A stretch of 64,000 nucleotides of DNA from Leptospiraceae bacterium (GTDB taxonomy: Bacteria > Spirochaetota > Leptospiria > Leptospirales > Leptonemataceae). The translations under genes were made by a program, and so were the position numbers. Where the stretch lies: the NCBI GenBank assembly GCA_026418015.1, contig JAOACE010000026.1, positions 1 through 64,000 of the forward strand. The letters run 5' to 3'. Under the pieces are notes generated by a model. It saw only the letters and a program-made list of their open reading frames with translations, had not been told where the DNA came from and ran no database searches. Positions 2,238 through 58,865 of this stretch are shown here, piece after piece (positions within the stretch are counted from its first letter, which is position 1; each line of letters starts with the position of its first letter).

Positions 2238-4151
2238 TTATATATTTTGGTATTGTGAATTTAGGCGTTCGTATCTTTCTAAATATACTTGAACAACATT
2301 ATCTTCTGGGTTAATTTGATAGATTTCTTTTAATAATACAATCGCATCTTGAATCTTTTTGTTATGGATGAATTCTATGGCTTCTTCGAATTTTTGGAGG
2401 GTTTGAAGTTTTTTTTCGATTTGTTCGTCAGAGTCTACATTAAAGCATTCGTAGATTTGAACGGGTTCTTGTTTTCCTTTAACACGAACTTTTTGGAGTT
2501 TTCTTAAATAATATTTATCTATATTTTTTAATTTTTCTTTAACCGAATCTGTTATTAATATGGGGGTTTTAAAAACTCTGGTAAGTTGTTGAATGCGCGA
2601 AGCTGTGTTTACTGTATCACCAATCACAGTTGTATCGAGTCGTTCTTGCGATCCAACTGTACCTAATATAACTTTATCATAATGGATGCCAATTCCCATA
2701 TCGATGTAAGCAACATTAGGATGCTGAAAAACTTGGTTAAATTCTATCAGTTTTTGTCGCATTTCTATTGCAGAATCCAAAGGAAATGGACAGGCATGTT
2801 CACATTCATAGAGAAAAAAAGCCATAATTTCGTCACCGATAAATTTATCGATAATGCCTCCATTTTTAATGATGATAGGATTCATCATTTCGAAAAATAG
2901 GTTTAAAAATTCGAATGTACCTCTTGGCGACATCATTTCCGAAAGACTAGAAAAATTTACTATATCGCAGAACATAATAGATAATTCTACCTCTTTGGAA
3001 TCCCCTTTGTTTATATCGTATAGATGTTCTTTTTCTAAAAGGGTACCATAATGTAATGGTACAAATCGCGCAAAGGAATCTACAATAAATTCAATCCTTT
3101 CTACATAATTGTTAATTTCTTGAACCATTCGATTAAAATTTTTTGTAAGTATTCCTAATTCGTCATTAGAAAATGTATATAACTTAACATGATAATTTCT
3201 GTTTGCAACTTCTATACTTGCTCTGGTTAATTTTTTTATGGGTTTTAATAGATACGAAGAAATTTCATAAAAAGAAAAAAATATAATTATAGCAATCATT
3301 AAACCTAATAATACAAAATATATTTTGATTTTTTGCAGTTGATTGTATTGGGATTTTGCATCGAAATCCAAAGCTAAAACGCCAAGAAAGTTTTTATCAT
3401 AATCAATAAGATGAATATAACAAGAAAGAAACGTTCCCCATTGATCGCGATAAAAATCTTTGTTACAACCCATCGTTTTGTTTGTAATTGCTTCTTGTAG
3501 GGCGGGCATTTCGGATATGTTATAGATAGCGCCGATAAATTCTCCCTCTTCGTCTTCGTCGATTTTTCCGTTGTTGTTGATGTCTGCTTTTTCCATATCA
3601 GAATCGGATAAAAACATAGCAAAATTCGAGTTTGGATCATTTGGTATGGGAATTAAAATATATGCAAACCTAATCAAGGGAGGATGTTTTATATCATAAA
3701 ATTTGAGTTCGTAAAAATCTTTTAATGGGATATTATCGGGTATACTGCTTGCTTTGATTTTTCTTAAAATTTGAACGACGAATTGAGATTCCTTAGTATA
3801 ATACAATGTTTGGTGTTCTTTTTCTTCTAGAATTTCTTGTTTTTCTCCTGGCGGTATATTTTGGATTTCTTTTAAAAGATTCGGATTGATGTTTAATTTT
3901 TCTTGCCATTTGAATTCTACGTTTTGTTTTAATTTTTTTAAATTTTCCATACCTTGTTTTTGGAAAAAAAGCACACCAGATTTTCCTACATTCAATATTT
4001 GTTGTTGGAGGGATTGTATGATTGTGTTTTTTGCGAAAATATTTAAAGAAAACAATATAAGTGCTGCAAATCCCATTGTAAAAAGACTAAAAATCAAGGC
4101 TACTTTTAGAGAAAAGGAAATCGATAAAAGTTTTTGTTTAAATCTATTCAT
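2238..4151 (-). CDS. Membrane adenylate cyclase (class III) with HAMP and periplasmic sensor
   Basis: The protein has about 637 residues from the ATG at 4151; a TTG nine codons earlier (4178) is possible but lies in a promoter-like region. Counted from the ATG: TM1 about 16-40, a periplasmic sensor about 41-270, TM2 about 275-297, HAMP to about 350, and a class III cyclase domain about 387-570. FCDIVNFSSL and GDEIMAFF supply the two metal-binding aspartates. The lysine in IDKFIGDE is the adenine-specifying position, and NTASR carries the transition-state Asn and Arg. The product should therefore be cAMP. The sensor contains a 12-residue loop fitting the EF-hand consensus (residues 190-201). 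The C-terminal 60 residues are helical and TPR-like. A perfect TTGACA at 4186-4181 is the likely -35 element. Confidence 0.9.
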   Translation of the reverse strand: MNRFKQKLLSISFSLKVALIFSLFTMGFAALILFSLNIFAKNTIIQSLQQQILNVGKSGVLFFQKQGMENLKKLKQNVEFKWQEKLNINPNLLKEIQNIPPGEKQEILEEKEHQTLYYTKESQFVVQILRKIKASSIPDNIPLKDFYELKFYDIKHPPLIRFAYILIPIPNDPNSNFAMFLSDSDMEKADINNNGKIDEDEEGEFIGAIYNISEMPALQEAITNKTMGCNKDFYRDQWGTFLSCYIHLIDYDKNFLGVLALDFDAKSQYNQLQKIKIYFVLLGLMIAIIIFFSFYEISSYLLKPIKKLTRASIEVANRNYHVKLYTFSNDELGILTKNFNRMVQEINNYVERIEFIVDSFARFVPLHYGTLLEKEHLYDINKGDSKEVELSIMFCDIVNFSSLSEMMSPRGTFEFLNLFFEMMNPIIIKNGGIIDKFIGDEIMAFFLYECEHACPFPLDSAIEMRQKLIEFNQVFQHPNVAYIDMGIGIHYDKVILGTVGSQERLDTTVIGDTVNTASRIQQLTRVFKTPILITDSVKEKLKNIDKYYLRKLQKVRVKGKQEPVQIYECFNVDSDEQIEKKLQTLQKFEEAIEFIHNKKIQDAIVLLKEIYQINPEDNVVQVYLERYERLNSQYQNI

Positions 4152-4372
4152 AATGTAAAAAATGACAAAATCAACCAAAATGTCAATCTTAAAAATATTT
4201 TATAAACATAATTGAATAGTATTTTTTTAAATTTAAAATATAAAATATATATAAAATTATTTATTGACTTTTAATCAATTGTAATCTTGTAAGATAAATT
4301 AAAGATAAAATAGATTTTTTAAGTCTTTATTCTAAAATAACTTGAATTGACTTTTATTATTTTACAATTTTT

Positions 4373-5485
4373 ATGGCAGTAATGCCGTATCAGAACAAAA
4401 CAAAAGCTGTTGTGGTTTTAGAAAATGGAGATTTCTACATAGGGAATTTTTTTGGTTATCCCAAAAAGTCCTTAGGGGAGGTTTGTTTTAACACATCGAT
4501 GACGGGGTATCAGGAAATTTTAACCGATCCCTCTTACTATGGGCAGATCGTTGTAATGACCTATCCGATGATTGGTAATTATGGGATTTACGAAGGATAT
4601 TCGCAATCAGAAAAGGTTCAATGCTTTGGTTTTATCGTAAAAAAATACGTCAAACATCCATCGAATTTTATTTCGCAGATAACCCTAGAAGAATTTTTGA
4701 TTCAAAATCAAACGCCTGCAGTAGAAAACATTGATACGCGAAAGTTAGTACTCACATTACGGAATCAAGGTGTAATGAGGGGGGGGATTTTTCCCGATCA
4801 GGCTTCTTTTAAAAAAGAAATGCTCGACGAAGTTCTTTCTATACCACCTATGGCTGGATTAGATTTAGCCTCGAAGGTATCTACGAAAAAATCTTATAGA
4901 TATAGCACAACAGAAAAAAAATATAAAATTGCTGTATTGGATTACGGTGTCAAAAAAAGTATTTTGCGATATTTAGACGAAGCAGGTTTCGAGGTTCATG
5001 TATTTCCTTCGCACACTCATGCAGAAGATATCAAACACTTTGATGCTTTTTTTCTTTCGAATGGTCCTGGTGATCCTGCGGCTACTGTTTATGCCATAGA
5101 AAATGTAAAAATTCTTTTAACGTTTAAAAAACCCATCTTTGGTATTTGTTTAGGGCACCAAATATTAGGATTATCAAGAGGTTGGAAGACGTATAAATTA
5201 AAGTTTGGTCATAGAGGGGGCAATCAACCTGTAATGGATATTCGCACAAAAAAGGTAGAAATTACTGCTCAAAATCATGGATTTGCTGTAGAAACAAAAG
5301 ATCAAGCAGATTTAGAAATTATTTACGTGAATTTAAACGATCAAACCATTGAAGGGTTTAAAGATAAAGAATTTCCCATATTAAGTGTACAACACCATCC
5401 CGAAGCAAGTCCTGGACCAAACGATGCAAAGCATATTTTTAAAGACTTTTATTTAATGGTAGAAAAATTTTATGAAAATCAATAA
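4373..5485 (+). CDS. carA: Carbamoyl-phosphate synthase small (glutaminase) subunit
   Basis: CarA hydrolyses glutamine and channels ammonia to CarB to make carbamoyl phosphate for pyrimidine and arginine synthesis. The 370 residues match the usual length. The N-terminal CPSase domain shows CFNTSMTGYQEILTDPSY (38-55) and ENIDTRKL (118-125). The C-terminal class I glutamine amidotransferase has the nucleophile Cys259 in GICLGHQ and the His342/Glu344 pair in QHHPEASPGP. carB is not in the window. The annotated ATG has no Shine-Dalgarno. A second ATG at 4382 is also possible, since TTGAAT (4342-4347) and TACAAT (4363-4368) form a promoter-like pair directly before it. The 3' end overlaps the next gene by 14 bases. 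Confidence 0.96.
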   Translation: MAVMPYQNKTKAVVVLENGDFYIGNFFGYPKKSLGEVCFNTSMTGYQEILTDPSYYGQIVVMTYPMIGNYGIYEGYSQSEKVQCFGFIVKKYVKHPSNFISQITLEEFLIQNQTPAVENIDTRKLVLTLRNQGVMRGGIFPDQASFKKEMLDEVLSIPPMAGLDLASKVSTKKSYRYSTTEKKYKIAVLDYGVKKSILRYLDEAGFEVHVFPSHTHAEDIKHFDAFFLSNGPGDPAATVYAIENVKILLTFKKPIFGICLGHQILGLSRGWKTYKLKFGHRGGNQPVMDIRTKKVEITAQNHGFAVETKDQADLEIIYVNLNDQTIEGFKDKEFPILSVQHHPEASPGPNDAKHIFKDFYLMVEKFYENQ

Positions 5486-12350: not shown

Positions 12351-12379
12351 TTGTCTTTATAAATAAAATAAATTAAATT
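12351..12379 (+). promoter_or_regulatory. Predicted sigma70-type promoter of the nuo operon
   Basis: TTGTCT (12351-12356) and TAAATT (12374-12379) are separated by 17 bases. The expected start of transcription is near 12386, only about four bases before the nuoA ATG, and no Shine-Dalgarno lies between. This is an inference from box spacing in a very AT-rich region. Confidence 0.5.
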
Positions 12380-12389
12380 GTCAGTCGTT

Positions 12390-12767
12390 ATGACATCCTT
12401 AGATCTTTTGTCCATTTTACCCTTAGTTATCACAATCCTTTTAGCAGTAGCAATACCTGCTGTTTTCTTAGTTTTATCTTATTACTTGGGACCTAAAAAT
12501 AATCATCCAACCAAATTATCGCCTTATGAGTGTGGTATTCCAACCAAAAAAACTGTTGGGGATGCTCGTCATCGCTTTCATGTAAAATTCTACTTAGTTG
12601 CTATGTTCTTTTTGATTTTTGATGTAGAGGTTTTATTTCTATTACCTTGGGCAGTTTGGTTTCAGAATAATCTTCAGTATGCGATTGTTTCTATGTTTAT
12701 CTTTATTGGGGTATTGTTCTTTGGTTGGTATTATTTAATAAAACGAGGAGGTTTAGAATGGGAGTAA
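12390..12767 (+). CDS. nuoA: NADH-quinone oxidoreductase subunit A
   Basis: NuoA is a three-helix membrane subunit of complex I at the base of the quinone channel. The 125-residue product has TM helices at about 8-33, 63-88 and 93-116. It carries the conserved loop [10 protein letters not shown] and the [26 protein letters not shown] region with its acidic membrane residues (D and E in FDVEVLF). ATG at 12390 is chosen over an upstream TTG at 12378 that would overlap the predicted -10 element. The gene overlaps nuoB by 10 bases and is the first of a 14-gene operon. Confidence 0.95.
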
Positions 12768-13849: not shown

Positions 13850-15085
13850 ATGGAAACAAAAAAAATTATTACATTAGAAGAAGATTCTAGTGGGATACAA
13901 TTTCCAACAGATTTAGATCCAAAAGAAATTGTTTTTGTAAACATTGGGCCAAGCCATCCAGCAATGCATGGAACTTTGCGTGTGTTGACTGCTTTGGATG
14001 GAGAAACAATCGTTGCTGCTGTAGCAGAAATGGGATATCTCCATCGCGGTTTCGAAAAGGATTGCGAAATTCATCCTTATCAGCAGTGTATTCCTTACAC
14101 AGATAGGTTAAACTATCTTTCTGCTATAATGAATAACATTGGTTTTGCAAAAGCTGTAGAAAAAATGTTGCAAATAACTATCCCCGAAAGAGCAAAGGTA
14201 ATTCGCGTAATCACAGCAGAATTAAACCGAATCATCGATCATTTAGTGTGTGTGGGAACAAACCTTGTGGATATCGGTGCTCTAACAAATTTCTGGTATT
14301 CTTTTAATGTCCGGGAAAAGGTTTACGACATTCTCGAAAAACTCTGTGGTGCTCGTTTAACGTCTAACTACATTCGAATTGGTGGACTATCAAGAGATAC
14401 TTATCCGGGTTTCGAGGAAGAAGTATTACATGTATGCGACGAAATATTAGAATCTGTGGGAGAAATTGAACGATTGACAGAAAAAAATCGTATCTTTTTA
14501 GATAGAACTCAAAATGTTGCTGTAATCAGTCTCGAAGATGCTATCTCTTATGGCTGGACTGGTCCTACATTAAGGGCATGTGGTATCGACTATGATTTAA
14601 GAAAAGTAGAGCCCTATTACGATTACGAAACTTATGATTTTGATGTGATCGTAGGAACAAAAGGCGACAATTTCGACAGAATCTATGTAAGGCTTTACGA
14701 AATTCGCGAATCAATTAAAATCATCAAGCAAGCGTTAAAGCGTTTAGCACCTGGACCAATTATGACAGATGATAAACGTGTAGCATTACCACCGAAAATT
14801 CATACATATGGTGATATAGAAGGTTTGATGAACCATTTTAAAATCATCATGCATGGGATTCAACCTCCTTTAAGCGAAGTCTATGATTATACAGAAGCTT
14901 CTAATGGAGAATTGGGTTTCCATATAATATCTGATGGTGGTAAATATCCTTATAGAGTAAAATGTCGTCCTCCTTCTTTTATGAATTATTCTGCATTTCC
15001 TCAATTAATCGAAGGTGGTATGATTGCAGATGCGATTGCAACCTTAGGTACAATTAACATCATAGCTGGTGAATTAGATAGATAA
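13850..15085 (+). CDS. nuoD: NADH-quinone oxidoreductase subunit D (49 kDa)
   Basis: NuoD (411 residues) forms the quinone-binding pocket with NuoB and is related to the large subunit of NiFe hydrogenases without the metal-binding cysteines. Recognised segments are IGPSHPAMHGTLRV (about 32-45), with the quinone-contacting histidine, MGYLHRGFEK, PYTDRLNYLS, and the C-terminal ISDGGKYPYRVKCRPPSF. Translation starts at an ATG with GAGG about seven bases upstream. The spacing to nuoE is 11 bases. Confidence 0.96.
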   Translation: METKKIITLEEDSSGIQFPTDLDPKEIVFVNIGPSHPAMHGTLRVLTALDGETIVAAVAEMGYLHRGFEKDCEIHPYQQCIPYTDRLNYLSAIMNNIGFAKAVEKMLQITIPERAKVIRVITAELNRIIDHLVCVGTNLVDIGALTNFWYSFNVREKVYDILEKLCGARLTSNYIRIGGLSRDTYPGFEEEVLHVCDEILESVGEIERLTEKNRIFLDRTQNVAVISLEDAISYGWTGPTLRACGIDYDLRKVEPYYDYETYDFDVIVGTKGDNFDRIYVRLYEIRESIKIIKQALKRLAPGPIMTDDKRVALPPKIHTYGDIEGLMNHFKIIMHGIQPPLSEVYDYTEASNGELGFHIISDGGKYPYRVKCRPPSFMNYSAFPQLIEGGMIADAIATLGTINIIAGELDR

Positions 15086-30978: not shown

Positions 30979-32464
30979 TGATAATAATTATATAATACAA
31001 TAATAAAAATACAAATAGTTGTACCCAGAAGGGCGTTTTAAAAATCCATTCGGGGTCATCATTTTTCCACCTAAAATAATCTAATATTAAAACTGGAAAG
31101 ACAATTCGTAAAATATCTATTCCGTAAGTAAGTAAATCAGGGGTAAGTTTGCCTGCTACATTCCATACCCAATTGGTAAAAATATCTTTGTATAAAATGT
31201 AGGAGTGATCAAAATTATATGCGCGAAAAGATATTGCAGCAAAACTAAAAAGAAAATAAGTAAAGAATATCGATAAAAAGATTCTAACAGGAGAAGGAAT
31301 TATCGGATATTGTTGAAAAAAATTCGATACATTATCTTTTAAATGTTTACGATAGAATACATAAAATACTGCGTAAATTCCATTCATAATCCCCCAATTG
31401 ATAAAGGTCCAGTTCGCTCCATGCCATACACCAGAAATAAAAAATACAATCAAAATATTTCTGTATTGATAGAGTTCTCCTAATCGATTCCCTCCTAAGG
31501 GAATGTAAACATAATCTGTAAACCAGCGATTTAAGGTAATATGCCAGCGATTATAAAGCTCTACGGGATTTTTCGAAAATTCAGGACAGTGAAAGTTTTC
31601 GCTCAGTTCGAACCCTAAAAATTTTGCAGAACCTTTTGCAATGTTAGAATATCCCGCAAAATCGCAATATACCTGAAACGCAAAAGCCATACCAGCTAAA
31701 AGAATATGCCCACTGCCATTTCCTACTGCAAGTTCAGGATTTTTTAAATAGATATAGATGTTATCCAAAAAGACCTTGCTAACATGTTCGCTAAGATGAT
31801 CTGCTACACCAACTTTTAGATAATATCCATACAATAAATACCAAATCCCTTTTACAAGATTTTCGATGGTTATAGTTCTTTTTCGATTAACTTGTGGAAG
31901 AAGATCTTGTGCTCTTTCGATGGGTCCTGCAACTAATTGAGGGAAAAAACAAACAAACAAAGCAAAACTAATTAAATCCTTTTCTGCTTTGATAACTCTT
32001 CTGTAAACATCGATAGTATAAGACATGGTTTGAAATGTATAAAAACTAATTCCCACAGGTAAAATAACATTTAGTAATATTTTATTTTTATCATACAAAA
32101 AGATATCCAAATGAGTTAAACTATAAAGTACGTTTAAAACTTCTATAAAATTATTTATAAAGAAATTATAATATTTAAACGTAAACAGAATCGTTAGGTT
32201 CCCAATTACAGAAATACTAAGTAAAATTTTTCGTCTTTTTTCTGATTCGGATTTTTCGATTAAAATAGAAACTACATAATCCAAAAATGTGCTTATAAAT
32301 ATCAAAGTAAGATATAACCAATCCCACCAACCATAAAAAAAGTAAGAAGCAATGAGTAAAAAAAGATTTTGATAGCGAAGTTTAGCATTTGTAAAAAGCA
32401 ATAACCAGTATATTATTATAACAAAAATAAAAAAATAAAGATAAACATTCGAATTAAAAATCAT
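30938..32464 (-). CDS. MBOAT family O-acyltransferase (AlgI-like)
   Basis: The 508-residue polytopic protein belongs to the membrane-bound O-acyltransferase family, AlgI branch. Clear marks are GISFYTFQTMSYTIDVYR (about 138-155), AGPIERAQDLLPQ (about 181-193), FHCPEFSKNPVELYNRWHITLNRWF split over about 288-312, and the catalytic histidine in SGVWHGANWTFINWG (about 336-350). The enzyme carries acyl groups across the membrane for O-acetylation of an exopolysaccharide or similar. It is the first gene of a two-gene operon with the DUF1574 gene. A -35/-10 pair ends six bases before the ATG. Confidence 0.92.
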   Translation of the reverse strand: MIFNSNVYLYFFIFVIIIYWLLLFTNAKLRYQNLFLLIASYFFYGWWDWLYLTLIFISTFLDYVVSILIEKSESEKRRKILLSISVIGNLTILFTFKYYNFFINNFIEVLNVLYSLTHLDIFLYDKNKILLNVILPVGISFYTFQTMSYTIDVYRRVIKAEKDLISFALFVCFFPQLVAGPIERAQDLLPQVNRKRTITIENLVKGIWYLLYGYYLKVGVADHLSEHVSKVFLDNIYIYLKNPELAVGNGSGHILLAGMAFAFQVYCDFAGYSNIAKGSAKFLGFELSENFHCPEFSKNPVELYNRWHITLNRWFTDYVYIPLGGNRLGELYQYRNILIVFFISGVWHGANWTFINWGIMNGIYAVFYVFYRKHLKDNVSNFFQQYPIIPSPVRIFLSIFFTYFLFSFAAISFRAYNFDHSYILYKDIFTNWVWNVAGKLTPDLLTYGIDILRIVFPVLILDYFRWKNDDPEWIFKTPFWVQLFVFLLLYYIIIINGVFGKDVIYFAF

Positions 32465-32470
32465 TTTTGG

Positions 32471-32500
32471 TTATCAAAAATTTGTAATTTTTTAAGTCAA
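32471..32500 (-). promoter_or_regulatory. Predicted near-leaderless promoter of the MBOAT operon
   Basis: On the minus strand TTGACT (32500-32495) and TGATAA (32476-32471) are 18 bases apart. The ATG at 32464 starts seven bases after the -10 element, so transcription would start at or next to the start codon. No Shine-Dalgarno is present. Confidence 0.45.
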
Positions 32501-32607: not shown

Positions 32608-32637
32608 TTGACGTTTAGATATCATTATAAATATTAA
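32608..32637 (+). promoter_or_regulatory. Predicted near-leaderless promoter of the 7TMR-DISM/SpoIIE gene
   Basis: TTGACG (32608-32613) and TATTAA (32632-32637) are 18 bases apart and end five bases before the GTG start at 32642. There is no Shine-Dalgarno. The -10 match is moderate and the region is AT-rich. Confidence 0.4.
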
Positions 32638-32641
32638 AAAT

Positions 32642-34522
32642 GTGCGTAAAATATTTATTTTTTTATTTTTTTCTAAAATCATTTTTGCTAATGATTTTAC
32701 GAATGTATTAGTGATAAACGAAGATTTAACATCAATTAGTTTTGAACAATACGTTTCGTTTCTAGGAATCGATCAAGAAATTCCTTTCGAAGAAATTTTA
32801 AACAAAAACTTTCTTCCAGTAGAAAATAATCCTTTCTATAAGGGATATACCAAAAAGATTTATTGGTTTAGGTTTAAAATCAGAAATGATTCCAAAAAAA
32901 TCATGACGATATATTTTCGATGCTGTCATTATAACACCGATATTGCATATTTATATATTATATCAAATGATCAATTCCTTCAAATAATAAAAATGGGGGA
33001 TAAATTTCCTATTGAACAATGGATATTTCCTTCTAGAGAAATTCTATTTCCTTTAACGTTAGAACCACAACAAGAATATACTTATTATTTAAAAATTCAA
33101 ACTACGAGTAAATTAGAAATCAGTTTTTATCTATATAATAGCCTTATATTTAAAAAACTTTATTCGCAAGAATATTTAATCATAGGAATATTCTTAGGTT
33201 TTATTTTTTTAATTATATTGATGACTTTGTATTTAAATTTTTCTGTAAAGACTCAAACTACGATTTATTTAATTTTATTTATGATTTTTTATTATTTAGG
33301 TTTAATTAGTATACTAGGGTTAGGATGGGAATTTTTATGGGGTTTTTTCCCTTATTGGAACGATAGAGCACATTTATTTTTTATGAATTTGGCATTGATA
33401 TTCTCTTATAAATTTATGGCTTTATTTTATAAAAATTATAAAAATATTTATAAATATAAATTAATATTTCGAATTCTTTCTTTCGTAAATATAATCATTA
33501 TTTTGATTTCCTTTTTTGGTTTTACTGCTTACATGAATAGATTGACATTTTTGGTTGTTATATTAGTTTTTTTTACTTCTTTTGTTTTGTCGCTTCAATC
33601 CGTGCGTTATAAAATTATTGTAGAACAAGAAATTACTTATGGTTGGCTCATTTTAATTGTATCGATTCTTTTGTATGTAATCAATCAATTAAACATTTTA
33701 CCGAAAAATTATACTTATTTTTTTAATGAAGATTTTCTTCTATTTACCTCTACAATCTTTTTTTTATTTCTTGTAATAGGTGTTCTAAAAGAATATAGTC
33801 TATTTCGATTAACATTTTTTGAATATGATGCGCAATTAAAAATAACAGAAAGTTTACAAAAAGCATTTTTACCAAAAGATACTCCAAGTAATTTTTATTA
33901 TATATACATACCACTCTTTAAAGTAAGTGGTGATTTTATTTATTATAAAAAAAATGATCAAAATTTATTTGTTATCGTTGCTGATGTACAAGGTCATGGT
34001 ATTGGATCTTCGGTTATTGTGGGTATGTTAAAAATTATTTTGGATTTTTTAAAAGAATGGAATGAATTGGATCAAATCTTAAATTATCTTTATAAAAACA
34101 TCAAAAATTATTTATCCGAAATATCTATTAGTCTTAATTTATTAAAAATTGATGAATCTAATGGAAATGTGGAAATCTTACGTTGTGGTGGAGAATACCC
34201 AATCATCATAAAAAATAACAAAAAAATTATAACAATAACATCTAAGGGAACTTTAATCCATTCCACATTTTTTATTTTTCCAGAGAAAGAAAATATAACC
34301 TTAGAAAAAAACGATTTAATTCTTCTTTTTACGGATGGTTTAAGAAATTTTTTGAACTATTATCCTTATATTAAACCAGAAGAGTTTTATGAATTTATTT
34401 ATGATCTTTTTTTTATGAAGAAAGATAAAAATGAAATTTATTCTGTCCTTTACCAATATTTTAAAGAATCCAAAAAATATCAGGATGATGATTTAAGCCT
34501 TGTAATTTATAAATATGATTAA
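32642..34522 (+). CDS. 7TMR-DISM receptor with SpoIIE-type PP2C phosphatase
   Basis: The 626-residue protein has a signal peptide (1-17), a periplasmic 7TMR-DISMED2 domain (about 20-165, with YWFRFKIRNDSKK), seven membrane helices (about 178-385) and a cytoplasmic SpoIIE/PP2C domain (about 415-626). The phosphatase motifs are SGDFIYY, VADVQGHGIGSS with metal-binding Asp and Gly, RCGGEYP, LLFTDGL and DDDLSLVIY. Such receptors bind an external ligand, perhaps a carbohydrate, and dephosphorylate a target such as an anti-sigma-factor antagonist. The start is GTG; the ATG two bases earlier is out of frame. A long hairpin covers the stop codon. No partner kinase is nearby. Confidence 0.9.
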   Translation: MRKIFIFLFFSKIIFANDFTNVLVINEDLTSISFEQYVSFLGIDQEIPFEEILNKNFLPVENNPFYKGYTKKIYWFRFKIRNDSKKIMTIYFRCCHYNTDIAYLYIISNDQFLQIIKMGDKFPIEQWIFPSREILFPLTLEPQQEYTYYLKIQTTSKLEISFYLYNSLIFKKLYSQEYLIIGIFLGFIFLIILMTLYLNFSVKTQTTIYLILFMIFYYLGLISILGLGWEFLWGFFPYWNDRAHLFFMNLALIFSYKFMALFYKNYKNIYKYKLIFRILSFVNIIIILISFFGFTAYMNRLTFLVVILVFFTSFVLSLQSVRYKIIVEQEITYGWLILIVSILLYVINQLNILPKNYTYFFNEDFLLFTSTIFFLFLVIGVLKEYSLFRLTFFEYDAQLKITESLQKAFLPKDTPSNFYYIYIPLFKVSGDFIYYKKNDQNLFVIVADVQGHGIGSSVIVGMLKIILDFLKEWNELDQILNYLYKNIKNYLSEISISLNLLKIDESNGNVEILRCGGEYPIIIKNNKKIITITSKGTLIHSTFFIFPEKENITLEKNDLILLFTDGLRNFLNYYPYIKPEEFYEFIYDLFFMKKDKNEIYSVLYQYFKESKKYQDDDLSLVIYKYD

Positions 34523-38170: not shown

Positions 38171-38809
38171 TTAGGGGTTAAAGTACCCCTTATTTTGTAA
38201 TTCTTTGGTTAATTCATAAGTAAATTCTTGGGAATGTTTGTCCATTTGTTCGGACGTTTCTCTTAGAATAGAACTTAAAAATTCGTAAATTTTTTCTGGT
38301 TCTTCGTCTGTACCAATGATTTTACTGGAAATTTCTTGGATTAGTTTATATTCTGCATCGTTTAAGATACGTTTTAAACTTTTTTGGGGATATTGTTTTT
38401 TTAATTCTATGATTCTATCTGCTAATTGGGATGGTGAAAGTCTTTGAAGAATCTTTTTTACAAAACTGATTTTATTCAATTTTAATTCTGGTAGTATAAG
38501 TTGTAATTTTAGATGAAAGTGCGAATCTTCGAAATGTTTCGATAATATAGATTGATTATTAGGTCCAATGGGAACCAAGATCTTTTTTTCTGCATCATAG
38601 AAATGGGTAATTTTTTTGGAAATCTTTATAGTGATTCTTTTTAAATTTTCTTTCTCCATTGCATTAATATTACTTATAATATTTTTATCGTCAATAATAT
38701 TTTGATGATTGAGTTTTTTAATATTAAAATAAACAATTCGAAATCGTTGTAATTCATAGCATTCTTCAAGTGGATTGACATTAAAAGCAAATTTAAAAAA
38801 ATCAAACAT
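38171..38809 (-). CDS. Hypothetical protein, divergent from the lipoyl-domain gene
   Basis: I do not recognise this 212-residue protein. It has no signal peptide or membrane segment. The N-terminal half is mixed strand and helix (RFRIVYFNIKKL; THFYDAEKKILVPIGPNN at about 69-86). The C-terminal half is strongly helical (LSPSQLADRIIELKKQYP; IYEFLSSILRETSEQMDKH). The one striking point is the start codon, which lies one base from the divergent lipoyl-protein start codon. The 3' end is one base from pepA and shares its hairpin. It may be spirochaete-specific. Confidence 0.65.
   Translation of the reverse strand: MFDFFKFAFNVNPLEECYELQRFRIVYFNIKKLNHQNIIDDKNIISNINAMEKENLKRITIKISKKITHFYDAEKKILVPIGPNNQSILSKHFEDSHFHLKLQLILPELKLNKISFVKKILQRLSPSQLADRIIELKKQYPQKSLKRILNDAEYKLIQEISSKIIGTDEEPEKIYEFLSSILRETSEQMDKHSQEFTYELTKELQNKGYFNP
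38173..38196. terminator. Hairpin between the convergent pepA and unknown genes
   Basis: AGGGGT (38173-38178) pairs with ACCCCT (38185-38190) around a 6-base loop; TATTTT follows on the plus strand. The hairpin starts four bases after the pepA stop and contains the last codons of the opposite gene. On the minus strand it lacks a T-run, so it mainly suits the pepA side. Confidence 0.6.
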
Positions 38810-38810
38810 T

Positions 38811-39062
38811 ATGCTACAAGAAAAAAAACATATACCGTTGTTAGTGCCAGATATTGGCGATGCAGAAAAGATTGAGCTTGTTCAATGGAATATCCAAGAA
38901 GGAGAATTGGTAGAGGAAGGCAGTGAATTATGTGAACTAGTAACATCCAAGGCAACATTTCCTTTAGAGTCTCCGTTTAAGGGAAGAATTATTAAAATTT
39001 TAAAAGGAGCTGGTTCGACTGTTAAAGTGGGAGAAGAACTTGCAATTATTGAAGTATCTTAG
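38811..39062 (+). CDS. Stand-alone lipoyl (biotinyl-lipoyl type) domain protein
   Basis: From the ATG at 38811 the product is an 83-residue protein that is nothing but a lipoyl domain. VPDIGDAEKIELVQWNI (about 10-26) and GELVEEGSELCELVTSKATFPL (split over about 29-50) match the E2 lipoyl domain. Lys45 in TSKAT corresponds to the lipoylated lysine of TDKAT. PFKGRIIKIL and VGEELAIIEV complete the fold. No E2 acyltransferase, E1 or E3 gene is adjacent. It could be a swinging-arm carrier for a complex encoded elsewhere. The ATG is one base from the divergent gene start; no Shine-Dalgarno; a perfect TTGACA lies 36 bases upstream. Confidence 0.82.
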   Translation: MLQEKKHIPLLVPDIGDAEKIELVQWNIQEGELVEEGSELCELVTSKATFPLESPFKGRIIKILKGAGSTVKVGEELAIIEVS

Positions 39063-41788: not shown

Positions 41789-44166
41789 TGATTTATAGGT
41801 AAAATTTGCAACTTGGATTTATAAGTAAAATCTTTTTTTTCTTCTGGTTTGTATAAGTTAAATTTTCTATATTCATAATTCAAAAATTTTTTTATTTGGT
41901 TTCCGTAAGATGGGCTTAAAGGATTACCATTAATTCCCGTAGGTATGATTCTTAGAGATTCATTGATTTTACCTGGTAATAATATATATCGTTCTGATGC
42001 GCCAGATCGTACATAAAAAGGCAGCTTTTGATCCAAGCTAAAATCCATCGGCGATACTGTGGCAATAGAACCTTCGACTTCGTAAGGTCCGCGATCAAAG
42101 ATTTTTTTTAAAAAAGGATTTCTTCCAAAGGGATGTTTGTATTCTAATAAATGGATTTTTCCCCATTGCCAATCATTTTTATTGTTAGAAATGTCTTTTA
42201 ATGCTTGAATGGTTTCTACAAAACTTTTGTATATCACTTCTTTTCGCGTTTCTTTTTGAGGTGTGTTTGGGTCGTCGAACCAGGAGGAATCTTTGTTTTT
42301 TAGTTGAATTCTTAAGGCATTGACTGCAATGTATTGTTTTTTTAGATATTGTTTGTATAAATCTTCGCCTAAATGGGGATAAAATGTATTATAGAGTAAT
42401 CTTTGCAACAATAAATGAAAAACACTCGAAACAACACTTGTTTTTTCTGTAAGATAATTCCAATGTTTTAATTCATTGATAATTTCTAATGCTTCTTGAT
42501 TGTTAGAAAAATTCTCACTCGAAAGATCGTCCATGATCACTTTAAAAAAATCCTCTGCCAAAAGAAGTTTGATATCTCTTTGTAAAGTCATCATATCTTC
42601 TATAGAAAATTTTTCCTTGGAGTTTAAGAATTCTTTGATTCGTTCATAACGATCGGGATAGTGATAATAATTCGAAATTGTATAAGGATATTTAGAAGAA
42701 TGTTTGTTGTTCGCTGTTGCAATCCAACCATTTTTGGGGTTTCTTAATCTTGGTTGCAAATTTGTTGGAACATAGCCAGCCCATTCATAAGTTCCTGTCC
42801 ACCCAGGCATGGGTAAAAGACCATTGAATCCATTTCTAATGGGAATGCCAACTGCTGCGGTATATCCAATGTTTCCCTCTTTATCGGCATAGACCCAGTT
42901 TTGTCCTGGGGTCTTAAAATATTCTATGGCTTTTTCTATATCATCAATATTTTTTGCTCGATTGGCTAAATACAACGCGATTGCAGCAAGGTAATGATCA
43001 TAAGCAGTCCATCTTAAACTAAATACCTCTTGTGTTTTTAATGGATAGATAGAATTGATGATAGGACCATGAATAGTTTTTTTGATTTCGAATACTTCTT
43101 CTTTGGATTTCGTTTTAAAAATCTTTTTTTCTATTTCTATGTTGAGATATTGACCCCTATATAAATACTGATTTTCGTTTTGTGGATTTAATGTTTCGAC
43201 GTAAAAATCAGCATCATCTGCCATAACATTCGTAAATGCCCAAGCAACGTTTTCATTTGCACCTACTACAACTACTGGTATACCGGGTAAGAGTAATCCC
43301 GATACATTCATTTCTGGTGTTATAAGCTGAGCCTCGTACCAAATACCTGGTAAACCAAAACCTAAATGCATATCGCTTGCAACGATGGGGGTTCCTGTTA
43401 AGGATTTATCTTTGGATATCACCCAATTATTCGAAGCACCTGTTCGTTCTGATCCAGTCAATTCTTTGATATCATCGATGGTTTTTAAAAAAGAAAGTAG
43501 TTGATCTTCTAATTCTTTATTTTTTGCTATTTCTAGGATTTCTCCTTTTTGTGGTACATAGTCGGGGAATAATTCTTTTGCTTTTGCCAAACCAAATTTT
43601 TGATTCAACAAATAAAACAAAATTTCTGTATCGAATGCTGTGTTTAAGTCAAAAGCCATATAATAAAAAATCGATAAACTATCTGTTGGTTTCCATTCTT
43701 GTGGTTTATAACCAAGAAGATAGAACTCTATGGGGAATCGATTTTGTTTGATAAAATGATTGATGCCATCAGAATAACTTTGTAGAATCTTTTTGATATT
43801 TTCTGGGTAGTCTTGGTAGATTTTATCGAGGGATCGTCCAGCTGTAATCGTTAAAAAAAATTTATCGGTAGGGATTAAAGATTCGCCCAATATTTCCGAA
43901 AGTTTTCCTTGTATGGCTCTTCGGATTAAATCCATCTGAAAAAGGCGATCTTGTGCCATTGCATAACCAATGCCAAAAGCTAAATCTTCTTCGTTTTCCG
44001 CTTTTATTATGGGCATATCGTAATCATCGCGAAAGATTTGAACTGTGCTTTTAATTTTAGGAGAATAGATTTTCCCATCGTAATTCGGTAGACTGAATTT
44101 AATCAAGACGCCTAATAAAACAAAAAGAAATAGCAAAAAAATCAATAAGTATTTAACAAACTTCAT
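41785..44166 (-). CDS. Penicillin acylase family Ntn-hydrolase
   Basis: From the ATG at 44166 the product has 793 residues; an earlier in-frame TTG (44187) lies inside the promoter. A membrane anchor or signal sequence (about 6-25) precedes an alpha-chain region starting at VQIFRDDYDMPII. The autocatalytic cleavage site is in TGASNNWVIS: the serine (about residue 245) becomes the N-terminal nucleophile of the beta chain. PGIPVVVVGANENVAWAFTNVMAD follows (split over about 303-326) with the oxyanion elements. The family cleaves amide-linked acyl groups of beta-lactams, N-acyl-homoserine lactones or lipopeptides. The PP2C gene follows it. No quorum-sensing genes are seen nearby. Confidence 0.92.
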   Translation of the reverse strand: MKFVKYLLIFLLFLFVLLGVLIKFSLPNYDGKIYSPKIKSTVQIFRDDYDMPIIKAENEEDLAFGIGYAMAQDRLFQMDLIRRAIQGKLSEILGESLIPTDKFFLTITAGRSLDKIYQDYPENIKKILQSYSDGINHFIKQNRFPIEFYLLGYKPQEWKPTDSLSIFYYMAFDLNTAFDTEILFYLLNQKFGLAKAKELFPDYVPQKGEILEIAKNKELEDQLLSFLKTIDDIKELTGSERTGASNNWVISKDKSLTGTPIVASDMHLGFGLPGIWYEAQLITPEMNVSGLLLPGIPVVVVGANENVAWAFTNVMADDADFYVETLNPQNENQYLYRGQYLNIEIEKKIFKTKSKEEVFEIKKTIHGPIINSIYPLKTQEVFSLRWTAYDHYLAAIALYLANRAKNIDDIEKAIEYFKTPGQNWVYADKEGNIGYTAAVGIPIRNGFNGLLPMPGWTGTYEWAGYVPTNLQPRLRNPKNGWIATANNKHSSKYPYTISNYYHYPDRYERIKEFLNSKEKFSIEDMMTLQRDIKLLLAEDFFKVIMDDLSSENFSNNQEALEIINELKHWNYLTEKTSVVSSVFHLLLQRLLYNTFYPHLGEDLYKQYLKKQYIAVNALRIQLKNKDSSWFDDPNTPQKETRKEVIYKSFVETIQALKDISNNKNDWQWGKIHLLEYKHPFGRNPFLKKIFDRGPYEVEGSIATVSPMDFSLDQKLPFYVRSGASERYILLPGKINESLRIIPTGINGNPLSPSYGNQIKKFLNYEYRKFNLYKPEEKKDFTYKSKLQILPINQ

Positions 44167-44174
44167 CAATTTGT

Positions 44175-44203
44175 TATATAAAATCAAATTATTTAGTTGT
44201 CAA
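44175..44203 (-). promoter_or_regulatory. Predicted promoter of the acylase-PP2C operon (near-leaderless)
   Basis: On the minus strand a perfect TTGACA (44203-44198), a 17-base spacer and TATATA (44180-44175) lie just before the ATG at 44166. The expected transcription start (about 44168) leaves a leader of only a few bases. This is the clearest such case in the window. Confidence 0.65.
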
Positions 44204-44249: not shown

Positions 44250-45860
44250 ATGGAAAATTATCCTTCAAAAACTAGTATCGATGCACTGATCGAAGAGAAA
44301 ATCCTAAGGACATTCTTGAATTTACGTTATTTTTTAATTTTTTTGTATTATGCTGGTGCTACGTTAAACCTAAAAGTATCTTCGAATTTGCAAACCTTAG
44401 GGTATTATTTAGGTGCCAGTTTAATGCTTTTATGGGGTTTCTACTTCGAGTTTTGGTTAAGAAAATTGTCTAAAAAAGTTGATAAAAATCAAATTTTACA
44501 CAGAATGAATTTATTTACGTTGTTTTTGGATTTAACGGTTGTTATCGGTGTTTTTATCCCCAATGTAATAGAAACCAAATCAATGGCAGGGAATTTTTGG
44601 AAAAACCCTGTACTTTTACTTATACCCTTATTTTATGTTGTTTTTGCAAGCTTTTTGTCACATAGAAGACGTGAGTCTTATTTTTTTGGTTTTTATGCTG
44701 TTTTTGGTTTAATTTTATGTTGGGTTTTATCTTTTAGAACCGGAGTAGAATTCGTGAACGAGTTTACGTTTATTGTCGAAAAAGTCAATTATTCTACTCC
44801 TATATTAGTAATTTTGTTTTATATAGTGTTTACGATAATTGCTAGTAGTTTTGTCGAATATATAAGACAAATCTTTACCATAAGTGAGGAAAGACAAAAT
44901 CAAGCCGAAAAACTGAATCAAAATTTAAATACCATCAACCAAGAAATCCTTCAAATCACAAAAGAAATGGGGGTATACATAGATTTTATTGCACAGTTTT
45001 CGAATCGATTTTTAGGGGAAGTGCAAGATCAAAGTGCAGCCATAGAACAAATATCTGCAACGATGGAAGAGATTGCTCAGAATTCTTTAAAAACAACCGA
45101 AATGGTATCCAACGAATACAAAATGATCGAAGAAATTCAGCAAGAAACGAAACGTTTAGCAGAACTTTTAAAAGTGATCGAAAAAGACTCCCAACATTTA
45201 CACGAAGAATTGCAAAAAACAAAAAATCAATCTAACGAAGCAATTCAAGCATCGGATAATTTAAAAAAAGTTATGGAATCTTTAAAAGTTTCTTTTCAGA
45301 GTGTAAGTGAGGTCACAAACATTATGACCGACATTGCCGATAGAACCAATCTATTATCTCTTAATGCTTCTATCGAAGCAGCTAGAGCAGGAGAACATGG
45401 AAAAGGATTTGCAGTAGTAGCACAAGAGGTAAGTAAATTAGCCGATAATAGTATAGAAAATGCAAAAAATATTAATAGAATCATCAAAGACAGTAATAAA
45501 ATTTTATTAAACGGCGAAAATAGTGTAGGTATTACAACCCGTTTAATTGAATTACAAAATGTGAACATAGAATCTGCATTAAAATTTTTCGAAGAATTAA
45601 AAATCAAAATCCAAAACCAAATCGAAGTAAACCATAAATTCATTCAATATTTAGAAGAGTTGTACAAAATTAGTAAAGAGATCGAAGGATATTCCAAAGA
45701 GCAAACCCTTGGAATCGAAGAAATATCCAAAACCATCTCTCAGATGGAAAAATCCATCCAAAAAATTGTACAAAAATTTTTGAATTTGAATGACCAGATA
45801 ACTGGCTTAAAAAATTTATCAGAAGGATTAAGAAACATTGTTCAATTCGAATCCAATTAA
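44250..45860 (+). CDS. Methyl-accepting chemotaxis protein with polytopic membrane sensor
   Basis: The 536-residue receptor has about six membrane helices in the first 210 residues, no large periplasmic domain and no evident HAMP. A long coiled coil follows, with the hairpin tip [22 protein letters not shown] and [16 protein letters not shown] (about 359-400). It resembles the receptor at 26986 in layout and in the C-terminal half ([21 protein letters not shown] here, [21 protein letters not shown] there). GGGAGG eight bases before the ATG is a strong Shine-Dalgarno, unlike the divergent acylase gene. Its 3' end is followed by purL after ten bases. Confidence 0.93.
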
Positions 45861-57516: not shown

Positions 57517-57544
57517 TTGACAAAATTCTGACTGGTTGTAATAT
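57517..57544 (+). promoter_or_regulatory. Predicted promoter of the fliI operon
   Basis: A perfect TTGACA (57517-57522), a 16-base spacer and TAATAT (57539-57544) precede the fliI ATG at 57558. The expected mRNA leader is about seven bases, without a Shine-Dalgarno. The -35 is a sigma70 type, not a sigma28 or sigma54 flagellar signature. Confidence 0.55.
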
Positions 57545-57557
57545 TAGATTTATACCT

Positions 57558-58865
57558 ATGGCAAACGATATACTAGATAAATATTTTAAAATTGTCAATG
57601 CAACAAACACAATTCTACCGTTAGGAAAGGTTGTAGAAATCAGCGGATTTACTATTATTACAGAAGGTCCTCCTGATACTGCCATAAAAGATATATGTAG
57701 AATCGAAAAAGAAGATGGCGAATATGTCTATTGTGAGGTTATTGGCTTTCGCGGAAAGTATTTAATTTTACTTCCTTTTGGTAGTCCAGATGGTATTTAT
57801 CCTAATGCCACAGTGCATAATACCAACCAAAAAATTCGTATCCTTGTTTCGGAAAAGATGATAGGTAGGGTTTTTGATGGATTAGGTAATCCCATTGATG
57901 GAGAATTTCCTATTTACGAAGGAGAATATAAAGATGCAGATAATTCTCCACCAAATCCAATGGATCGAGATCCGATTAATAGCGTATTAGTAACTGGGAT
58001 AAAAGCCATCGATGGTTTATTAACAGTTGGACGTGGACAAAGAATTGGTATATTTGCTGGAACTGGTGTTGGTAAATCGACTCTGCTCGGAATGATTGCA
58101 CGATACACAAAAGCAGATGTAAACGTAATTTGTCTTGTAGGAGAACGAGGAAGAGAAGTGCGTGAATTTATCGAAAGAGATTTAGGTAGAGAAGGTTTGC
58201 AACGTTCTGTTGTAATTGTTGCAACGAGCGATAAAAGTGCACTAGAAAAAATGTATGCTGCATATTTTGCAACAAGTATTGCAGAATATTTTCGAGATAA
58301 AGGAAATCATGTAAATTTGTTTATGGATTCTGTTACGCGATTTTGTATGGCACTGCGAGAAATAGGCATTGCAGTTGGAGATCCCTTAGGTCCTGGTGGT
58401 TATCCACAGAGTACTTGGTATCGATTAAGTCGATTAGTTGAACGTTCAGGTGTCGGTAAAACAGGTACAATTACGGGGTTCTATAGTGTATTAGTAGAAG
58501 CCGACGACATGACTGATCCTGTGGCAGATGCTACAAGGGGAATATTAGATGGACATATTATTCTAAGTAGAAGATTGGCTCATAAAAATCACTATCCAGC
58601 CATAGAAATTACGGAATCTATTTCTCGGGTTATGCCGAATATTATCTCGATGGAGCATTTCGAAATAGCATCAAAAATCAAATCCTTACTAGCAGTTTAT
58701 CAACAAAACGAGGATTTAATACAGCTTGGAGCTTATGCAAAAGGAAGTAATCCACAGTTGGATTTAGCAATAGAAAAAATGCCAGCGATTCAGGAATTTC
58801 TAAAGCAACCTGTAACGCGAGGTTATACATTCGAAGAAACATTGGAACTATTAAAGAAAATTTAG
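57558..58865 (+). CDS. fliI: Flagellum-specific ATP synthase FliI
   Basis: FliI is the ATPase of the flagellar type III export apparatus. The 435-residue protein has the F1-beta-like core: Walker A GIFAGTGVGKSTLLG (about 166-180), LVGERGREVREFIE (about 192-205), Walker B in HVNLFMDSVTRF (about 252-263), and YPQSTWYRLSRLVERSG. It includes the FliI/YscN-type VLVEADDMTDPVAD segment. It leads a small flagellar operon with fliJ and flbB, as in Borrelia, but here fliG and fliH are not directly upstream; a divergent phosphatase gene is. Confidence 0.96.
   Translation: MANDILDKYFKIVNATNTILPLGKVVEISGFTIITEGPPDTAIKDICRIEKEDGEYVYCEVIGFRGKYLILLPFGSPDGIYPNATVHNTNQKIRILVSEKMIGRVFDGLGNPIDGEFPIYEGEYKDADNSPPNPMDRDPINSVLVTGIKAIDGLLTVGRGQRIGIFAGTGVGKSTLLGMIARYTKADVNVICLVGERGREVREFIERDLGREGLQRSVVIVATSDKSALEKMYAAYFATSIAEYFRDKGNHVNLFMDSVTRFCMALREIGIAVGDPLGPGGYPQSTWYRLSRLVERSGVGKTGTITGFYSVLVEADDMTDPVADATRGILDGHIILSRRLAHKNHYPAIEITESISRVMPNIISMEHFEIASKIKSLLAVYQQNEDLIQLGAYAKGSNPQLDLAIEKMPAIQEFLKQPVTRGYTFEETLELLKKI

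Follow-up and report, generated by a model that had tools for sequence, protein, structure and literature searches.

A TTGAC box positioned on the start codon points to leaderless transcripts in Leptospirae

Introduction

The promoters of Leptospira have long been undefined, with many leaderless mRNAs mapped and no housekeeping motif to accompany them: in the dRNA-seq of L. interrogans, about 440 mRNAs had leaders shorter than 10 nt, about half of these shorter than 2 nt, Shine-Dalgarno (SD)-led genes coexisted with them, and no sigma-70-type or housekeeping promoter motif was found (PMC5243855). The leaderless genes that a -10 box at about 12 bp identifies occur widely among bacteria, and archaea are known to show a split between first and distal genes (PMC3160421).

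Here we analyse a stretch of 64,000 nucleotides (the window) from a Leptospiraceae MAG (GCA_026418015.1, contig JAOACE010000026.1), referred to below as the host, in which a sequence-only reading had proposed near-leaderless promoters at the first genes of transcription units and SD-led initiation inside operons. What we add is a positioned TTGAC -35 signal; leaderless mRNAs of Leptospira were already known, and the open-licence literature yielded no account of a -35 box placed at a set distance from Leptospira start codons.

Materials and methods

The host MAG comprises 2.9 Mb in 28 contigs, and the window lies on a contig of 65,353 bases. The sequence scanned was 1.19 Mb of the host, together with 0.23-0.40 Mb from each of four relatives. 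In the 1.19 Mb of host sequence 1,059 genes were called on coding composition alone, upstream signals being unused; first genes were those at least 40 bases from their upstream neighbour (n=616), and internal genes those at most 25 bases behind a gene on the same strand (n=375). Every 5-mer and 6-mer upstream of the 616 first genes was scanned without bias. All distances run, in bases, from the first base of the -35 box to the start codon.

For whole genomes, TTGACA-N(28-31)-ATG was counted against the same pattern at +8 spacing in 28 Leptospirae and 63 other Spirochaetota genomes; such spacing-shifted patterns replaced a reversed-pattern control, which was confounded by its ATG content. Distances in congeners were counted by eye from the sequence for the MBOAT, fliI, SpoIIE and nuoA genes, and some of the 35 orthologue comparisons reported below share a gene.

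Results

All of the promoter sites listed by the sequence-only reading were present at their positions in the window, with the box at nuoA reading TTGTCT, and two further boxes, at carA and at an unassigned reading frame, were absent from its list. The sites, with an operon-internal gene for contrast, are as follows.

4151..4186, minus strand: adenylate/guanylate cyclase (Guanylate_cyc domain) promoter; TTGACA at 35 from ATG 4151, no SD.
4347..4382, plus strand: carA promoter; TTGACT at 35 from ATG 4382.
12351..12390, plus strand: nuoA promoter; TTGTCT (not TTGACA) at 39 from ATG 12390, no SD.
12741..12757, plus strand: nuoB, an internal operon gene, with the Shine-Dalgarno sequence cgaggagg, conserved in congeners.
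32464..32500, minus strand: MBOAT gene promoter; TTGACT at 36 from ATG 32464, no SD.
32608..32642, plus strand: 7TMR-DISM/SpoIIE gene promoter; TTGACG at 34 from GTG 32642, no SD.
38659..38694, minus strand: upstream region of an ORF of 162 aa with no Pfam family; TTGACG at 35 from ATG 38659.
38775..38811, plus strand: biotin/lipoyl-domain gene promoter; TTGACA at 36 from ATG 38811, no SD.
44166..44203, minus strand: acylase (penicillin amidase, Pfam PF01804) promoter; TTGACA at 44203-44198, a 17-base spacer, TATATA at 44180-44175 and 8 bases before ATG 44166, placing the box at 37; no SD hexamer.
57517..57558, plus strand: fliI promoter; TTGACA at 41 from ATG 57558, no SD.

The arrangement described at the acylase gene is exact in the sequence, and an in-frame TTG lies there 34 bases past the start of the box. 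The same arrangement had been claimed for nuoA, the MBOAT gene, the SpoIIE gene and fliI, and this held for the -35 boxes (at 34-41) and not for the -10 elements: among these five main sites the exact TTGACA is found at the acylase gene and fliI only, and the -10 is clean at the acylase gene only, with weak -10 calls at the other window sites. The TTGACA boxes noted at 35 and 36 before the cyclase and lipoyl-protein starts are likewise present, and an SD hexamer was found at none of the first genes listed in the sequence-only reading. A strong SD precedes the gene at 44250, which runs divergently from the acylase gene. Inside the nuo operon, SD sequences were seen at most of the genes that the reading had named. 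At fliI, the distance of 41 predicts a leader of about 6 nt. A second in-frame ATG of carA lies upstream at 4373, just 26 bases past the TTGACT box, and 4382 is favoured as the true start because the leaderless spacing (35 against 26) fits it. The ORF at 38659 is a weaker case, since its reading frame is open further upstream (38809).

Besides A and T runs, two sharply positioned families emerged from the k-mer scan of the 616 host first genes, SD and TTGAC. The SD family (AGGAG, AAGGAG) ends 5-8 bases before the start; a search for a 16S gene, aimed at its anti-SD tail, found none in this MAG, and a working anti-SD is indicated by the strong positioned AAGGAG signal. TTGAC began at 34-37 in 64 first genes where 4 were expected (p 5e-53), with counts per position of 1 at 33, 22 at 34, 15 at 35, 14 at 36, 13 at 37, 5 at 38 and 3 at 39. 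The lower edge was sharp, with 73 boxes at 34-40 and 3 at 27-33. The enrichment beyond shuffled sequence that the sequence-only reading had called for was evident, shuffled upstream regions giving a mean of 1.5 boxes at 34-37 and a maximum of 7 in 200 shuffles. The same five bases in other orders reached at most 13 at these positions, some of them overlapping the TTGAC box itself, and the box was almost absent from internal genes (5/375, against 69/616 first genes). The exact box is carried by about 12% of host first genes; when boxes with one mismatch are included, the excess is, by a rough estimate, some 125 of the 616 (20%).

Chance matches are to be expected in AT-rich DNA, and it speaks for such an origin that TAWWWT is not position-enriched and that individual sites match the -10 no better than background does. 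For the -35 box, the k-mer scan and the shuffles exclude this explanation; the spike is missing in shuffles, other base orderings and internal genes, as it is in E. coli K-12 (250 kb; 1/130 at 33-38) and in pooled Fibrobacter loci (1/240), and we regard the probability of a chance origin as negligible.

The -10 element is a different matter. The TAWWWT or -10 hexamer alone showed no positional enrichment in the AT-rich host genome, and the emphasis on TATATA/TATAAT as the key signal was dropped on this account. A mixture model of the sequence following the host boxes favoured a 16-base spacer (weight 0.69) and a weak hexamer with T as its last base, with a log-likelihood of 27.3 against 12.7 +/- 3.0 for shuffles. 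The -10 is degenerate at most boxes and visible at some as TATATA, TACAAT or TATTAT; in the GC-rich relatives, with only 10-16 sites each, it was inseparable from shuffles. Full -35/-10/ATG matches numbered 5 against 0 in the reversed control, a control confounded by ATG content. Set beside the sigma-70 pattern, in which 16-18 bp separate TTGACA from TATAAT, the host promoters match clearly in their -35 half, and most of their -10s are degenerate. It is conceivable, if rather doubtful, that Leptospirae possess a -35-led class of promoter in which the selected feature is the distance from TTGAC to the start and the -10 is largely dispensable, even in genomes of 53% GC; RNA polymerase would then be leaning unusually on -35 contacts for leaderless genes.

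Box and SD tended to exclude one another in the host, an SD being found in 2/69 box genes against 129/547 other first genes (p 8e-6). The median anti-SD energy of box genes was +0.6 kcal/mol, compared to +0.4 for background and -2.9 for internal genes. Start codons of box genes were ATG in 71 cases, GTG in 4 and TTG in 0 (TTG depletion, p 0.004). The division into two initiation modes, leaderless for first genes and SD-led inside operons, stands as a tendency and does not extend to a general rule: strong anti-SD pairing was seen in 25% of the first genes lacking the box and in 34% of the internal ones, and many host genes have neither a TTGAC box nor strong SD pairing.

The positioned box was retained among congeners. 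In three congeners, with proteins at 66-73% identity, TTGACA or TTGACG precedes the acylase ATG at exactly 34; the spacers differ, and there is no SD. TTGAC lies at 35-38 before the MBOAT gene in the host and three congeners, with no SD, and in all four this protein is conserved from residue 1 onwards, which fixes its start codon. Before fliI, TTGACA is found at 35-43 in the host and three congeners, again with no SD, and in two species a leader of 6-9 nt is predicted. A 53% identical orthologue of the SpoIIE gene in the genome of Leptospiraceae bacterium KatS3mg129 (G013) has TTGACA 34 before a GTG and no SD, and nuoA has TTGTCT or TTGCTA at 37-39 in three species (the host and two congeners), also with no SD. 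In 35 comparisons of first-gene orthologues, a host box was present in 3 and kept in all 3, the other 32 being boxless in both.

Two further observations concern nuo. The window NuoD is 96% identical to that of KatS3mg129, and the closest NuoD outside Leptospirae to the product of nuoD (window 13850-15085) is found in candidate division FCPU426 (70-74% identity) and in Fibrobacter, which hints that the nuo cluster may have been acquired by lateral transfer. The sequence BPGB01000021.1 (L025), labelled Woesearchaeota archaeon KatS3mg002, carries a nuo locus as in KatS3mg129 with an identical nuoA upstream region, and is probably a mislabelled bin.

These spacings would be deceptive if the boxes belonged to ordinary leadered promoters and the true start codons lay further downstream than the called ones. 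Start codons are often miscalled in AT-rich MAGs, and the gene caller used here did pick some wrong starts, for example that of the MBOAT gene. Boxes could not, however, keep so constant a distance from the called start, nor show so sharp an edge, unless that start were real; the gene starts were computed without upstream signals, the MBOAT protein is conserved from its first residue, and the annotated starts of L. biflexa p74 agree, giving the same spacing, with only four TTGAC boxes within 22-59 bases of RefSeq starts, at 33, 34, 36 and 37. We consider miscalled starts a very unlikely source of the pattern.

Across whole genomes, the start-codon spacing was counted 3,840 times in Leptospirae against 2,742 at +8 spacing (ratio above 1 in 27/28 genomes), and 8,168 against 8,201 times in other Spirochaetota (ratio above 1 in 30/63 genomes), a difference between the two groups with p 6e-7. 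A control at -8 spacing gave the same class picture, G003 being among the few exceptions. In gene-based samples, one genome (G041) had TTGAC at 33-36 in 14/134 first genes (p 3e-15), and three others (G013, G011 and G026) showed the same spacing in smaller numbers; from G013 the TTGAC profile alone was taken, since repeated elements swamped its k-mer scan. Pooled Leptospira plasmid and phage sequence held 6 positioned boxes against 0.4 expected (p 3e-6), with none among the 21 first genes of a Leptospira phage stretch.

Outside Leptospirae, ratios of about 1.5-1.8 were seen in G048 and G107 (f7 g29), G052 and G091 (f11 g33), and G064, G075 and G154 (f22 g45), which are possible independent cases of leaderless promoters. 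Separately, about 9-13 first genes of G013 have many unrelated 5- and 6-mers in the same positions, which suggests a repeated element or a family of genes that share their upstream sequence.

A dyad, TTGAY-N6-RTCAA, is also enriched in host intergenic sequence, with about 13 sites at N6 and no more than 4 at each of the other spacings between 2 and 11 (examples are G000:C17 near 245380, and G000:C16 near 132504 and 248119); it may be an operator, spaced like those of CRP/FNR, at some of the leaderless promoters. As this dyad overlaps some boxes, TTGAC could be thought a regulator binding site held at a fixed distance from the start codon and not a -35 box. Such dyad sites number only about 13 against the 64 positioned boxes; the TTGAC signal is directional and lies where a -35 box would if its start point were at the ATG, a weak -10 follows it at 16 bases, and it recurs across the class in unrelated genes. 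A regulator site is a very unlikely account of the box.

Discussion

The reading that we prefer, with a probability of roughly 0.88, is that the boxes belong to sigma-70-type promoters from which transcription would begin on the start codon itself or a few bases ahead of it, so that the mRNAs would be leaderless or nearly so. The leaderless interpretation first offered for the window is upheld by position, SD exclusion, conservation and class-wide occurrence; its stress on the -10 was misplaced, the positioned signal being the -35 box. From these sequence patterns we infer the sigma factor, the exact 5' ends and the SD-independent initiation.

In the proposed arrangement, the TTGAC -35 box would begin 34-37 bases ahead of the start codon, and in occasional cases as many as about 43. 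A box of 6, a spacer of 16, a hexamer of 6 and the usual discriminator of 6 sum to 34, which would place +1 on the A of the ATG, and the edge at 34 would be sharp because a shorter distance would truncate the start codon. A ribosome, probably a 70S, would initiate on the 5'-terminal AUG or GUG independently of the SD, which would go unused. Where boxes lie at 38-43, as they do at some sites, leaders as long as 9 nt are likely. Roughly 1/8 to 1/5 of host first genes would have a promoter that predicts an RNA 5' end at or near the start codon.

TTGAC at a fixed start-codon distance across the class offers a simple and testable promoter rule. The spacing also aids the choice between alternative start codons, as at carA, and leaderless genes of this kind would escape surveys that look no further than 20 bases upstream of the start codon.

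The closest known system is that of L. interrogans, whose leaderless mRNAs occur, as those predicted in the host, within class Leptospirae and alongside SD-led genes (PMC5243855); 5' ends were mapped in that study and no motif accompanied them, whereas here there is a positioned TTGAC and the 5' ends are predicted. The short leaders mapped there agree with this prediction. Mycobacterium and Deinococcus (cited in PMC5243855) resemble the host in having a large leaderless minority in an SD-using bacterium, but belong to unrelated phyla and have measured 5' ends. The TA-led genes of Zheng et al. 2011 (PMC3160421) share with the host a promoter element at a fixed start-codon distance that marks leaderless genes, as well as the tendency of distal operon genes towards SD; the element used there was a -10-like box no more than 20 bp upstream of the start, whereas in the host the signal resides in the -35 and the -10 is degenerate.
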